64,000 nt of DNA, taken from the IMG/VR virus record IMGVR_UViG_3300009314_000709, positions 1-64,000 of that record. One strand, given 5' to 3'. This DNA comes from a virus. A program made the translations under genes and the position numbers. The notes beneath the pieces are model-generated. The model saw only the letters and a list, made by a program, of their open reading frames with translations, did not search any database and was not told the origin of the DNA. Each line of letters starts with the position of its first letter. Position 1 is the stretch's first letter. Positions 2,135 through 20,327 of this stretch are shown in pieces.

Positions 2135-2203
2135 TTGACTGGTTTTATCAGTAAATCTATAACGGCGGCTCGATGATTTGTTACCTTGCCACGAGGATTT
2201 CTC

Positions 2204-4501
2204 ATGTGTGGAATTGTAGGGTTTATTGGTGAGCCCTTAGACAGCCGATTGGCGTTTGAGTTGTCAACAAACCTATTGGCGAGAACTGAAATACGGGGCG
2301 ATGATGCTTCGGGGTATTGGGCTTGTGACACGTTGCCAGAAGATCAAGGGTGTGTTTACTGGACGAAGGCCCCCAAGAAAGCCAGCGACTTCGTTAAGGG
2401 CGACGGCTGGCAGGCGATCAAAGATATTAAGCTGAATCTTCTTATCTCACATTGTCGCCGATCTACAGTCCGAGGCAGCGAAAACAAGAACCGCAACAAC
2501 CATCCATTCCTAAGTAGCGATTCTCGCACAGCGCTTGTTCATAATGGTAACGTCCCCGAGTTTGATTCGCTTCGGAGCGACTATGATGTAATGAGCGAAT
2601 GCGACAGCGAGATTCTACTTCGTATGATGGAGCGTGGTCCTCATTACAATCTTGAATACCTGCGGCAACAACTTGGACGCCTCAAAGGCAGTGGCGAGAA
2701 AGCTATCAAAGATTGCCCGGATGAAGAAGTCCCATTGTGGAGCCACAGTCTTCTCGGACTCGTCGACATCTTTGCTCGAATCAATTACGGCGCAATGGCC
2801 GTAGCGATTGGAGAACGGTGGGAAGACGGAACACGAGCCCTCTGGTTATTCCGTGATCGAGAAAGGCCGCTACAAGTCATAGACATGCGGGAATCTCTCA
2901 ATCAGGTCTACGTTGTTTCCGAAAAGCGAATTTGGCGAGAAGCGGTCGAAGCGACACCAAACGCCAGACGGTACGTCAAAGGCTCGACTCCGATCATTGA
3001 ATTTCCGCCGATGTACATCTGGCTGCTGACCTACCGGGAGGGCGAGAAAAACAAGTTTGGCGTGAGGAAGTTCCGCATCAATCGCCAGCGCCGTCACGAT
3101 ACAACATTCGAGGAAGAGCGCCCAGACGATTTGGTTCAGCCAACAAACCGGGGGGCGATTCGTGTTGTCACAAATCTCAAGCACGACCACGAACAAGATC
3201 ACACAAATGGCGTCACGGCGCACGAACCGACCGCCTCCGACAGCACACCAGTAAAGAAGAGCGACGACAAAGGAAAGAAAACCGAGTCAAAAAAAAACGT
3301 AAGCGCCCCCTCACCGCCCACCCACACTTCTTCACCGGAGCCCGACGAGACCTCAAACCAGACGTATGAAGACTGGCCGGGGGAAGTCTACCCTTTTGTG
3401 AGCCGCTACCTGACTACCTTCTTTGAAATGCCGACCGCCGAAAGAAGCCGTCCGGCCATGAGTCAGGTGGTACAATTGCGAACCACCGCATATTCGCCCA
3501 GTCTTAGCATCCCTGATCCAAGCGACAAAGCGATTGTACTAGGCAATCCGCACTACCGAGACTGGGCTAATGCGCTCAAAGCCAAACATGGCTGGCATGA
3601 TCGAGTCCGCCAATCAGAGGGCGTAGCCAAGCGAGACATAATATCTCTCTGGGTCATCCTTAGAGAAGCCCGAGAAGCCTGGCAAGCTATGCCTAGTGAT
3701 GAGCCGGTCTCCGCCTTCACGAACAACCTAGCTCCCACAGATTGCTTCGAGCACATGATACGGTTGATCGACGCTCGTACCAAAGTGTCGCATAGACCGT
3801 GGCCAACGGGAATGACCGCTGGGCTAACGGATACCTTCAAAACACTGCAAGAGCAACTGACGGAAGCAGCGGTACGTCTTCGGGATCAGGATGAAGAATT
3901 TCCCGACATGACGAACTACGAGGCAGAACTTACGAAGGATCATTACCACCGGTGGGCCAAAGTTCTCCAGGCACGACATCAATGGAACGATGCGGCCTGG
4001 AGAAACGGTATCGATGTTAAGTTGTTCTTCTTACTCTCCGAAGTACACAACTCCTGGAGAGGGCATATGCGAACCGTGTATGCCGACGTTCCATTTGATG
4101 CCGATGATCCACCGAGCATGGCCTGTGAAGCTATTGGGGCTGCGAATGCTCAAGTACGAGTGCGGAAGCCGCCCTTTGAAGACGACGAGGAAGAAGACGA
4201 AGGCGAGAACGGAGATCACGAAGTAGAGCGTCCCCTAGGCGTGATAAGGACCGACAGAATGACTGTACACGAATCAGAACCAGGCCAACTCGACATGGAT
4301 AAAGTGGAAGAGTTCAATGACTCTCTCCACAAGTTACGAGAAATTCTTGCCGGGATTGATACCGGCGTAAACGAGTTGATCCGAGAAAAGACAATCAACA
4401 ACACCGAATTGCACGAGATTGTCGACAGCCTCAAGGATGCTGTGCAAGACATGGAAGGACTGAACATCATCGCCGAGAGCTACACGAAACAAGCAACTTA
4501 A
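2204..4501 (+). CDS. class II glutamine amidotransferase with duplicated C-terminal domain
   Basis: The start is fixed by family chemistry: ATG at 2204 gives MCGIVGF, with the nucleophile Cys2 exposed after Met removal, and GAGGA lies 7 nt upstream. The N-terminal third is an Ntn-hydrolase glutaminase like those of asparagine synthase and GlmS, with RGDDASG, HNGN and CDSE motifs; it releases ammonia from glutamine. After a charged linker rich in Lys, Ser and Pro (about residues 340-400) come two copies of an unrecognised module (HYRDWANALKAKHGW near 448, HYHRWAKVLQARHQW near 577). The C-terminus is an acidic coiled-coil-like segment. No synthetase domain is fused, so the ammonia acceptor must be elsewhere. 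Phage class II amidotransferases are known to accompany COOH-NH2 ligases, and one lies at 48517. Confidence 0.88.
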   Translation: MCGIVGFIGEPLDSRLAFELSTNLLARTEIRGDDASGYWACDTLPEDQGCVYWTKAPKKASDFVKGDGWQAIKDIKLNLLISHCRRSTVRGSENKNRNNHPFLSSDSRTALVHNGNVPEFDSLRSDYDVMSECDSEILLRMMERGPHYNLEYLRQQLGRLKGSGEKAIKDCPDEEVPLWSHSLLGLVDIFARINYGAMAVAIGERWEDGTRALWLFRDRERPLQVIDMRESLNQVYVVSEKRIWREAVEATPNARRYVKGSTPIIEFPPMYIWLLTYREGEKNKFGVRKFRINRQRRHDTTFEEERPDDLVQPTNRGAIRVVTNLKHDHEQDHTNGVTAHEPTASDSTPVKKSDDKGKKTESKKNVSAPSPPTHTSSPEPDETSNQTYEDWPGEVYPFVSRYLTTFFEMPTAERSRPAMSQVVQLRTTAYSPSLSIPDPSDKAIVLGNPHYRDWANALKAKHGWHDRVRQSEGVAKRDIISLWVILREAREAWQAMPSDEPVSAFTNNLAPTDCFEHMIRLIDARTKVSHRPWPTGMTAGLTDTFKTLQEQLTEAAVRLRDQDEEFPDMTNYEAELTKDHYHRWAKVLQARHQWNDAAWRNGIDVKLFFLLSEVHNSWRGHMRTVYADVPFDADDPPSMACEAIGAANAQVRVRKPPFEDDEEEDEGENGDHEVERPLGVIRTDRMTVHESEPGQLDMDKVEEFNDSLHKLREILAGIDTGVNELIREKTINNTELHEIVDSLKDAVQDMEGLNIIAESYTKQAT

Positions 4502-5360: not shown

Positions 5361-5520
5361 GATTTGTTAAGGAATAATCGGCGACGTGCCGATTACATAG
5401 TGTGGGAGAAAATACCGTGGGGTCGCTGACTCCGGCCCTGAAGACTAATGCCCAATGCGGTTGAGGGTACTCCCAGCCCGTCGTTTCCAACACGGCGGAC
5501 AACCCCAAGGAGAGTTTAGA

Positions 5521-6372
5521 ATGCCTTACTCGCAACGTTTTGTCGCCTCCGTCGTCGTTGACGGACAGGTTCAGAAAGAGAGCCCTGATGGCTCGGTCGA
5601 AATTCCTTTCGGCTCCGAGTACACCCTTCGTTTCCGCAACAAGCACCGTAACCGTCGTGCCGTTGTAAAGCTCTGGATTGACGGTGAGGAGCAATCCATA
5701 GGTGGGTACGTGATCCCGCCTAGCTCGTTCAAAGATATCGAGCGGAATAGCCACTCACCGCACAGGTTCAAGCTGGTTAATCCCCACTCCGCTGACGCCC
5801 AGGCGCACGGTAAGGATGAACACAACGTCGAAGGTTACAACGGCGTTGTGGAAGCAAGGTTCTACCTCGAAAAAGAACAGCCGCAGGAAGTCCACCATCA
5901 CCACCATCACCACCATGACCACTACCATCCCGTGCCACGACCACCACGGCGTCCGCCGTGGCAACCGTACCCCTACGAGACTTTCTCGTTGGATGCGAAG
6001 AGGGACTCGGGAGGGCCACGTGGACAAAGCGCCGGTGGTGAACAGGAGATGAGGACATGCTCTACAAACGCAGCCGACTACGACGAGGCTGAGTGCGCAC
6101 CCGAATTTCTATCGATGGGTGCCACCGAAGCGGAAGCAGCGCCAAAGAGAGCCAGCGCTAAGCGGGCCATGCGGCGTAGCACTGTCGCCGGTGTGACTGT
6201 TGAAGGGAGCAGGTCGAGCCAAACCTTCCGCAAGGTGGATATTGATCTGGAAGAACAATTCACACCCATCAAGTTGATCTTGAAGGGTTATCACGCCGGT
6301 CCCACGGAAGTGGACGAAGTGGAAGTGCTAGACGACGCCGACGTGGTCGAGGCCACTTCAAAAAAAGCCTAA
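5521..6372 (+). CDS. His-rich phage protein, zero-frame product
   Basis: 283 residues. The ATG at 5521 is chosen because AAGGAG sits 7-12 nt upstream and MPYSQRFVASVVVDG looks like a true N-terminus; an ORF start at 5455 has no such site. Residues 1-120 look like a beta-rich domain of a type seen in large phages, of unknown function. They are followed by eight consecutive histidines then DHYH (about 124-135) and a Pro/Arg-rich linker. The C-terminus is acidic. The last sense codons contain seven adenines, and a -1 shift there adds a zinc ribbon (see next entry). The His tract suggests metal binding. A 160-nt gap upstream holds a small hairpin (5373-5391) but no recognised gene. Confidence 0.8.
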   Translation: MPYSQRFVASVVVDGQVQKESPDGSVEIPFGSEYTLRFRNKHRNRRAVVKLWIDGEEQSIGGYVIPPSSFKDIERNSHSPHRFKLVNPHSADAQAHGKDEHNVEGYNGVVEARFYLEKEQPQEVHHHHHHHHDHYHPVPRPPRRPPWQPYPYETFSLDAKRDSGGPRGQSAGGEQEMRTCSTNAADYDEAECAPEFLSMGATEAEAAPKRASAKRAMRRSTVAGVTVEGSRSSQTFRKVDIDLEEQFTPIKLILKGYHAGPTEVDEVEVLDDADVVEATSKKA

Positions 6373-6485
6373 CGGCGACTGCTAGGCCAACGTCCGCAGT
6401 CGCCACAAGCTACTGCTCGAACTGTGGTGCAAAGAGGAAGCCCCCAGGGGCGAAATATTGCCATGTCTGCGGTCACAAGTACTAG
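6360..6485 (+). promoter_or_regulatory. candidate -1 programmed frameshift site and zinc-ribbon extension
   Basis: The run A AAA AAA (6360-6366) is in the correct phase for tandem tRNA slippage (TCA AAA AAA GCC). After a 7-nt spacer comes a perfect 9-bp stem (6374-6382 with 6396-6404, 13-nt loop). The zero frame stops at 6370-6372. The -1 frame stays open for 39 codons to a TAG at 6483-6485. It encodes two CxxC knuckles (CSNCG and CHVCG) spaced as in a zinc ribbon. The -1 frame has no ATG, GTG or TTG before the ribbon, so it cannot easily be a separate gene. Confidence 0.72.
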
Positions 6486-6502: not shown

Positions 6503-6537
6503 AAACCCCGCCCCGGCCGTTGGCCGGGGCGGGGTTT
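6503..6537 (+). terminator. strong hairpin terminator
   Basis: A perfect 16-bp GC-rich stem (6503-6518 with 6522-6537) with a 3-nt loop lies just after the zinc-ribbon stop. No long T-run follows on either strand, but the position between genes fits a terminator. Confidence 0.8.
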
Positions 6538-17411: not shown

Positions 17412-17533
17412 TTTCACATAATAGACTGAAATTCCGACAAGATTTGACAAAAAAAATGACTTTGCTGCACACATACACTAGATGGGGTTTTCTGCTTCAA
17501 TTTCAACAGCGGCTTTCTAGTATAAGGGTGGCT

Positions 17534-18361: not shown

Positions 18362-18922
18362 TTATTCTAGGTAAGCCCGATCATACCGCAAACTAATCTC
18401 CAAGAGAACTATCGACATGTCACCCATATCAAGGTCGCCGAAGTTGACCTCACGGGGGTAGCAGTTTTCAAACTTCCATTTTTCGGTGACTTTACCGCAG
18501 CCGTCGTACATGCACAAGACCGCATTTCGCTTAAAGAAGTCACCTCCATGTAAATTCGGGTCAAATACTGGTTTCCACTCTTCCCCTCCCTCCGGTTTGG
18601 GGTCGTAGGCTTGCTTCACCCACTCAAAGACTTTATTTTCGTTCGGACGAGTGTCATATAGTGTAAGTTGTAATGGCTTCCAATCTCCCATCACTGGATA
18701 GAAGATGTGTTGTACCAAATGCGAGACTTGCTGTTCTTTGAACTCCAATTGGGGACGAGCGGCTTTCAAAGGTGGCAAAGCATTGGAAACACCAGAAACG
18801 CCTTCGATTTGCAAGAGCCAACGGTTCTTAACTTTCGGGAAGCAGGCACCCATGCCTTCTAACCCAAAATCCAAGCCCATATTGTCTCTATCGGTACATG
18901 TCGGATAGGTCGGTGGCGGCAT
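18362..18922 (-). CDS. tail tube protein paralogue 1 (gp19-like)
   Basis: 186 residues. Carries the gp19 family pattern near the C-terminus: NAVLCMYDGCGKVTEKWKFENCYPREVNFGDLD, then IVLLEISLRYDRA. Tail tube proteins stack as hexamers inside the sheath. This is the most divergent of three adjacent copies. Its ATG follows the stop of the next copy without a gap. One copy may be the main tube and others tube-end or hub caps. Confidence 0.8.
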   Translation of the reverse strand: MPPPTYPTCTDRDNMGLDFGLEGMGACFPKVKNRWLLQIEGVSGVSNALPPLKAARPQLEFKEQQVSHLVQHIFYPVMGDWKPLQLTLYDTRPNENKVFEWVKQAYDPKPEGGEEWKPVFDPNLHGGDFFKRNAVLCMYDGCGKVTEKWKFENCYPREVNFGDLDMGDMSIVLLEISLRYDRAYLE

Positions 18923-19507
18923 CTACAAACATCCTTCGCAGCATGGTGAGGGATCGACTCCACCGCATCCTACGATGTACTTAACTTGTGAGTATCGTAA
19001 AGTCATTTCGATATCGGCGATATTGGAAGAGCTATAATCTAGGTCGTTAAAGTTAACAGCCTGTGGCCAGGCATCTAGTAAGGTCCAGATTTCCATCACC
19101 GTGCCGCAGCCATCATACATGGTGAGCGTGGCTTTGCCGCTGAACCCTGTTCTTTTAGATGACATCTTCTTCGATGTCGGTTCGTTGAAATCATACACGG
19201 CAAGCAGCCACGAGAGAACCTGGACTCCATTACCTTTGTTGGAGTCCAGGAACGTCACGGTAACTGGTTCCCAGGTTGCCTTGCCGGGTATCCACGTTCT
19301 GTCGTTTAGGAAGTTTATCTCGATCTCTTCAAACGAGATACTAGGACGTGCTGCGACCTTGACAAAGTGTGGGTCAATTCGGAAGGAACAGTCATAGCCC
19401 TCTACCTCAAACGTCCACCTGAATTTAGTCTTGAAGACAGTTTGAGGATCACCTATACCGACAGAGCCGATACCCATGCCTTGAGAAGCGGGGTTAAAGC
19501 CTGCCAT
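18923..19507 (-). CDS. tail tube protein paralogue 2 (gp19-like)
   Basis: 194 residues from ATG 19507, chosen because GAGGA lies 5 nt upstream and MAGFNPASQGMGIG aligns with the start of paralogue 3. It has KTKFRWTFEVEG, FVKVAARPSISFEEIEINFLNDRTWIPGKATWEPVTVTF and AWPQAVNFNDLDYSS. The C-terminus has extra cysteines (CGGVDPSPCCEGC). An 11-bp inverted repeat (19219-19250) lies inside. Confidence 0.85.
   Translation of the reverse strand: MAGFNPASQGMGIGSVGIGDPQTVFKTKFRWTFEVEGYDCSFRIDPHFVKVAARPSISFEEIEINFLNDRTWIPGKATWEPVTVTFLDSNKGNGVQVLSWLLAVYDFNEPTSKKMSSKRTGFSGKATLTMYDGCGTVMEIWTLLDAWPQAVNFNDLDYSSSNIADIEMTLRYSQVKYIVGCGGVDPSPCCEGCL
19219..19250. repeat. 11-bp inverted repeat inside tail tube gene
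   Basis: Arms 19219-19229 and 19240-19250 are perfect complements around a 10-nt loop; intragenic. Confidence 0.75.
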
Positions 19508-19664
19508 GTACGTCCTCAACAGTGTGTAATCGACATCTACGTACTCTCGTCTTAGATCAATCCATCGTTTCCAGTTGTTGACTTCTTTCACCAGGTACGT
19601 ACATTTCCGCTTATACTACGCAGCTAAAACTAAGCTGCTCGTTTCCACTTTGGCTCGATTCCTA

Positions 19665-20291
19665 CTACGTGCAAGGGAAACAGCACGGGGTGTATTCCCA
19701 TTTCGGACAGTAGTGCTCGAAGTGTACCTGCGAGTACCTAAGCGTTAGCTCAATGTCGACGGTGTCGGATGAACTGTAGTCTAGGTCGCCAAAGTTAATG
19801 GCTTGCGGCCACGCATCCTCGAATACCCATACTTCTAGCAATTCACCACAACCATCCCATAACTTCAAAGTGGCTTCACCAGCGTAGTTAATACGCTTAC
19901 TGTTCATGTACTTGCGGGTTGGCCTTGTGAAGTCAAAGACATTGGTGAGCCAGTCATACAAACCTAGGTTGCCACCAGCGGCGTCACCTGATAGATGTCC
20001 TGCGACATCCATATACGTGACCGTGATGGCTTCCCAGCTTGCTTTTCCTGGAATCCATGTCTTATCATTGAGGAAGTTAATTTCTGTTTCCTCGAATGAC
20101 AGGTTAGGTCGGGCCGCTACTTTAACAAAGTAAGGCGGGACACTAAATTGACAATCACCTGTGCCCAAAATCTCTAGCGTCCAACGGAACTTCCGTTTGT
20201 AAACTACTTGGGGATCACCAACACCAACTGGTCCGATGCCCATACCTTGCGAGTTGGGATCAAAACCTGAGTAACCAGACATAGTTGGCAT
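19665..20291 (-). CDS. tail tube protein paralogue 3 (gp19-like)
   Basis: 208 residues from ATG 20291 (GGAGAG about 8 nt upstream). Shares MGIGPVGVGDPQVVYKRKFRWTLE, ARPNLSFEETEINFLNDKTWIPGKASWEAITVTYMD and AWPQAINFGDLDYSSSDTVDIELTLRYSQV with paralogue 2. It sits directly after the sheath gene, the usual place for the main tube protein (gp18 then gp19), so this copy is the best candidate for the true tube. Confidence 0.87.
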   Translation of the reverse strand: MPTMSGYSGFDPNSQGMGIGPVGVGDPQVVYKRKFRWTLEILGTGDCQFSVPPYFVKVAARPNLSFEETEINFLNDKTWIPGKASWEAITVTYMDVAGHLSGDAAGGNLGLYDWLTNVFDFTRPTRKYMNSKRINYAGEATLKLWDGCGELLEVWVFEDAWPQAINFGDLDYSSSDTVDIELTLRYSQVHFEHYCPKWEYTPCCFPCT

Positions 20292-20327
20292 AATCAATCT
20301 CTCCTATCGGTTATGTTTAGTTGGTCG

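Follow-up and report, generated by a model that had tools for sequence, protein, structure and literature searches.

Our analysis of a gene from a large myophage leads us to favor, with somewhat better than even confidence, the view that a programmed -1 ribosomal frameshift specific to one lineage makes a C-terminal zinc ribbon optional; judging from its sequence, the phage probably makes the encoded protein both with and without this tail. The DNA under study, hereafter referred to as the window, comprises the first 64,000 nucleotides of a virus record in IMG/VR that is 72,432 bases long. In the proposed mechanism, the majority of ribosomes would read the codons AAA AAA GCC at the gene end and stop at TAA, thereby releasing a protein of 283 amino acids with a complete beta-sandwich core. 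A minority would be paused by a GC-rich hairpin positioned 7 nt downstream, slip back by one base on the heptamer A_AAA_AAA, and append 39 residues ending in the zinc ribbon to yield a product of 321 amino acids. Both the slippage and its efficiency are inferred. The ancestor very probably carried the ribbon fused in frame, as the relatives do, and a formerly obligate tail would have become optional in the lineage of the window. A sequence-only reading had already proposed a programmed -1 frameshift at this position; the anatomy of the signal, the alternative frame and the identity of the zinc ribbon all stood up to our analysis, and the hairpin exceeds chance expectation, but the signal is not conserved. 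Programmed frameshifting is consequently the better of two live explanations and not a demonstrated event.

Anatomy of the slip site and the -1 frame

The zero-frame gene (5521..6372, plus strand, as are all features of this section) encodes a beta-sandwich, a His-rich disordered linker and an acidic tail, followed by a TAA stop codon. The open reading frame containing it spans 5455-6372, with the ATG at 5521 as the likely start, and its last codons are TCA AAA AAA GCC TAA. The in-phase heptamer, the spacer of 7 nt and the perfect stem of 9 bp that the sequence-only reading had described each proved exact to the base. The slippery heptamer A_AAA_AAA occupies positions 6360..6366 and, by phase count, lies in the zero-frame X_XXY_YYZ phase; the 7-nt spacer GCCTAAC (6367..6373) includes the zero-frame stop (6370-6372); and in the hairpin at 6374..6404 (about -20 kcal/mol by folding) the arms GGCGACTGC (6374-6382) and GCAGTCGCC (6396-6404) form the stem around a 13-nt loop. 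A weak Shine-Dalgarno-like GAGG (6349..6352), situated 7 nt before the heptamer, is a candidate upstream stimulator, an element that is optional in -1 frameshift cassettes.

A stop-to-stop scan shows the stretch 6246-6372 to be open in both the zero and the -1 frame. Past the heptamer, the -1 frame continues for 39 codons (6366-6482) to a TAG stop (the extension thus covers 6366..6485), and its peptide, SLTATARPTSAVATSYCSNCGAKRKPPGAKYCHVCGHKY, continues the C-terminus of the homologues. The ribbon itself, YCSNCGAKRKPPGAKYCHVCGHKY (6411..6482), matches Pfam Zn_Ribbon_1 (PF13240) at 27.1 bits, above the curated threshold of 25 (E 3.5e-6), in agreement with the earlier assignment. Equally borne out is the assertion that this frame has no start codon: from the preceding stop onward (open from 6246) it contains no ATG, GTG or TTG, and expression of the ribbon from its own start or through translational coupling is thereby ruled out.

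A terminator-like inverted repeat (6503..6537) follows the ribbon stop, and the ribbon is therefore probably carried by the same transcript as the gene. We also considered the stem as a terminator of the short product; this is ruled out because no T-run follows the stem and the terminator-like repeat lies beyond the ribbon stop. Rfam yielded no match at 6360-6410 and three weak, sub-threshold matches around the terminator-like repeat.

Several controls bracket how unusual the hairpin is. Of the 16,258 coding positions in phase, 26 (0.16%) are followed at a spacing of 5-8 nt by a perfect stem of at least 9 bp, and the local folding energy at the heptamer falls within the lowest 0.15% of coding windows. 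Dinucleotide shuffles match the folding energy in 0.05-0.2% of cases for the 40-45 nt adjoining the heptamer and in 0.85% for a 60-nt stretch; for a 74-nt stretch, 7 of 200 shuffles do so (z = -1.9). Under the harshest control, a random synonymous recoding with the -1 peptide held constant, 1.4% of the sequences match the energy and 2.6% the 9-bp stem. The phase of the heptamer, found in this register five times in the 96 predicted open reading frames of the window, contributes about a further factor of three, and any single p-value among these is inflated since the finding was chosen for its striking looks. The hairpin is well beyond local chance. Its 7-nt spacing agrees with the 5-8 nt published for stimulatory structures in bacteria, among which cases of stem-stimulated A_AAA_AAA are stated as proven (PMC4066793).

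Gene family and its C-terminal modules

The window, a fragment of a large myophage, encodes a thymidylate synthase besides a tail sheath with its stabiliser, a tail tube protein and a baseplate hub protein. A 92-kb contig (G001) is collinear with it for about 28 kb, and two others (G002, G003) are so for shorter stretches. Three tail tube-like paralogues stand in tandem at 18362-20297 on the minus strand, an arrangement also present in G001-G003. Another gene, at 2186-4501 on the plus strand, encodes a 771-aa protein with a class II glutamine amidotransferase-like domain at its N-terminus; an A9 run (3289) falls inside its open frame. The C-terminal half of the protein is similar to part of the gene at about 36.8-37.5 kb.

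The gene at 5521-6372 is a member of a large uncharacterised phage family. Profile searches of IMG/VR matched 377, 445 and 238 stretches, the 80 best being kept in each case, and among these matches relatives reside on contigs of up to 364 kb; others are found in the large phages XacN1 and RAS14/CM1. The proteins are built from a beta-sandwich (residues 1-118 of the window's protein, completed by strands at about 225-257), a long disordered linker, rich in His within the window's subgroup and in some others, and an exchangeable module at the C-terminus. Among the matches listed, most members have a zinc ribbon in this place; a charged, coiled-coil-like tail replaces it in seven loci (L013-L017, L019, L020), and L072 and L086 lack the module. 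Two family members (L090, L091) come from contigs that binning assigned to a Thermoplasmatales archaeon and a Limnochordia bacterium; these possibly are phage contigs sitting in metagenome bins. In XacN1, the family gene comes after the tail sheath gene, and a tail-associated role of the protein is a guess that we base on this position. Flexibly tethered and presumably binding zinc, the ribbon would suit contacts with nucleic acids or proteins, and its presence on only a fraction of the copies would set their stoichiometry.

No Pfam family matched the N-terminal domain in any of 32 scanned members, and matches to PHROGs were scattered and weak. AlphaFold2 predicts the sandwich confidently both in the relative L011 and in the zero-frame product of the window; the short product should accordingly be able to fold on its own, as far as the models indicate. 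The predicted fold (L011, 3001-3885; window, 5521-6369) has counterparts among the predicted proteins of large DNA viruses of eukaryotes, including Yasminevirus, Sylvanvirus, Marseillevirus, Pithovirus, iridoviruses and nimaviruses (about 20% identity, best E 4e-15); for some of these proteins, a SHOCT or RING module is annotated at the C-terminus. A search of the PDB with this fold produced no solved structure at E <= 0.001. It is possible that phages and eukaryotic viruses share an undescribed domain with swappable tails.

Among the matches listed, 159 distinct relatives have the zinc ribbon fused in frame, some of them with a degenerate knuckle. The loci that we read further comprise eight distinct relatives with another tail or none, eight copies that run off their contig, and two broken copies (about 1% of the family), of which L208 has an in-frame TGA within the gene and L151 a break of frame midway, at which there is no slip site. 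Within this set, the window holds the only copy with its ribbon behind a slip site; none of the 159 + 10 distinct classified copies among the matches listed shares it, and a frameshift conserved across the family is thereby ruled out. Compared, as the sequence-only reading had suggested, for conservation of the A7 run, the stem and the -1 frame, the homologues do not preserve the signal: in the nearest relatives among the matches (L011, L006/L010, L001/L012), an A7 run is lacking and the ribbon is fused in frame. Precisely this arrangement had been named beforehand as refuting the frameshift and marking a recent indel or sequencing error; as it turns out, it cannot tell a recent indel apart from a signal that evolved recently. 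On the sequences compared, the frame change is private to the lineage of the window.

Explanations for the private frame change

The weights that we attach to the four explanations discussed here are judgements, not computed posteriors. Programmed frameshifting draws its support from the in-phase heptamer with its spacer and stem in front of a frame without a start codon of its own, from the rarity of such a stem in coding sequence, from a comparison of about 27 kb with relatives in which no further true frame break came up, from the predicted autonomous folding of the short product, and from the existence of ribbon-less relatives. Moreover, ribbon and stop, AAGTACTAG, are retained as in the relatives, so that the -1 frame has evidently been under selection until recently. 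Against it stand the 159 in-frame relatives, none of which has a slip site among the matches listed. Runs of A are prone to indels, and this counts against programmed frameshifting as well. So does the report that A_AAA_AAA is a weaker slip site than A_AAA_AAG (PMC5009743). The lesser rarity of the stem under synonymous recoding and the choice of the finding for its looks weigh on the same side, as does a large survey in which singletons with fused homologues were mostly ascribed to sequencing errors and those at the 3' end leaned to indels (PMC3711429). A -1 cassette is recognised by a slippery X_XXY_YYZ heptamer in phase and a stimulatory structure about 5-8 nt downstream, both of which are present here, and by conservation of slip site and frame among homologues, which we did not find; with the two products predicted only, assignment of the gene to this class is provisional. 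We regard as evenly poised the fuller reading in which a constitutive ribbon, borne by a protein whose predicted fold resembles predicted proteins of large DNA viruses of eukaryotes, was turned optional by a new -1 cassette in one lineage, a reading that includes a young origin of the programmed frameshifting and an ancestral in-frame state still visible in the relatives.

Unlikely, although the most serious competitor, is a natural one-base deletion, by which replication slippage removed one A from an ancestral A8 run (TCA AAA AAA AGC) that had kept the ribbon in frame. The ribbon would then be lost or be made by incidental slippage, and the hairpin would be a chance product of a GC-rich Ala/Thr/Ser linker. 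Such a deletion is in keeping with the in-frame fusion in all 159 ribbon-bearing relatives among the matches listed, with the other broken copies in the family (L151, L208), with the ribbon-less members, whose existence indicates that ribbon loss is tolerated, and with the leaning of 3'-end singleton frameshifts to indels in that survey (PMC3711429). It leaves unexplained, however, why an in-phase heptamer and a 9-bp stem stand at ribosomal spacing, and no decay is seen in the ribbon frame. Even after a deletion, slippage on the A7 run would probably still yield a little ribbon-bearing product.

We consider it improbable that the A run contains a sequencing or assembly error and that the real phage possesses an A8 run and an ordinary in-frame fusion. 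The site is a homopolymer, and singletons with fused homologues were mostly ascribed to sequencing errors in the same survey (PMC3711429); moreover, the window derives from a single metagenomic contig. Our IMG/VR search, from which records very near the window were possibly excluded, retrieved no independent copy and no near-identical contig with either A7 or A8, and a nucleotide search among phage records gave no match. Yet apart from the gene under study, about 27 kb compared with the three relatives (G001/G002/G003) contain no true frame break, other multi-frame matches being either shadow frames or tandem paralogues, namely the tail tube-like genes at 18.4-20.3 kb; a contig error-ridden in general is ruled out by this comparison. 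Longer A runs (A9 at 3289 and A8 at 17449) lie inside long open frames, and an error would leave the stem unexplained. Transcriptional slippage, in which RNA polymerase would add one A in some transcripts and one such extra A would indeed restore the fusion without ribosomal slippage, seems to us very improbable, given that a large share of bacterial genomes shows evident selection against slippage at runs of nine (PMC1088944), that seven is short, and that the phase of the heptamer and a ribosomally spaced hairpin would be needless.

Relation to known frameshifting systems

Should programmed frameshifting be confirmed, the visibility of an in-frame ancestor in close relatives next to a new cassette would make the birth of a programmed frameshift directly studiable; should the change be an indel, it would exemplify a singleton break that mimics a full frameshift signal. 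The site shares with Escherichia coli dnaX an A-rich slippery heptamer, a downstream hairpin and a nearby zero-frame stop. In dnaX, the heptamer is A_AAA_AAG, a Shine-Dalgarno element lies upstream, and frameshifting shortens the product, whereas A_AAA_AAA in the window would lengthen it and only a weak GAGG precedes it. As in the lambda-type G/GT tail assembly chaperones, a phage gene receives a 3'-end extension through -1 frameshifting (here predicted); in contrast to these, the gene gave no match to chaperone families.

The closest likeness is to the Ig-like domains on coat and tail proteins of phages such as T3 and A2, which are optional C-terminal modules added via -1 or +1 frameshifting (PMC5009743), and from which the principle at issue here is already known. 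There, relatives variously have in-frame, -1 and +1 versions, and a chance out-of-frame landing with subsequent selection has been proposed (PMC5009743). A full-text literature search found no description of a zinc-ribbon module added by programmed frameshifting in a phage. Like the Ig-like systems, the window's gene has a small 3'-end module out of frame that is in frame in its relatives; it differs from them in its module, a zinc ribbon, and in its carrier, an uncharacterised beta-sandwich protein, and its frameshifting is a prediction from sequence. If this prediction is true, the phage habit of attaching optional C-terminal modules would widen from Ig-like domains to zinc ribbons.
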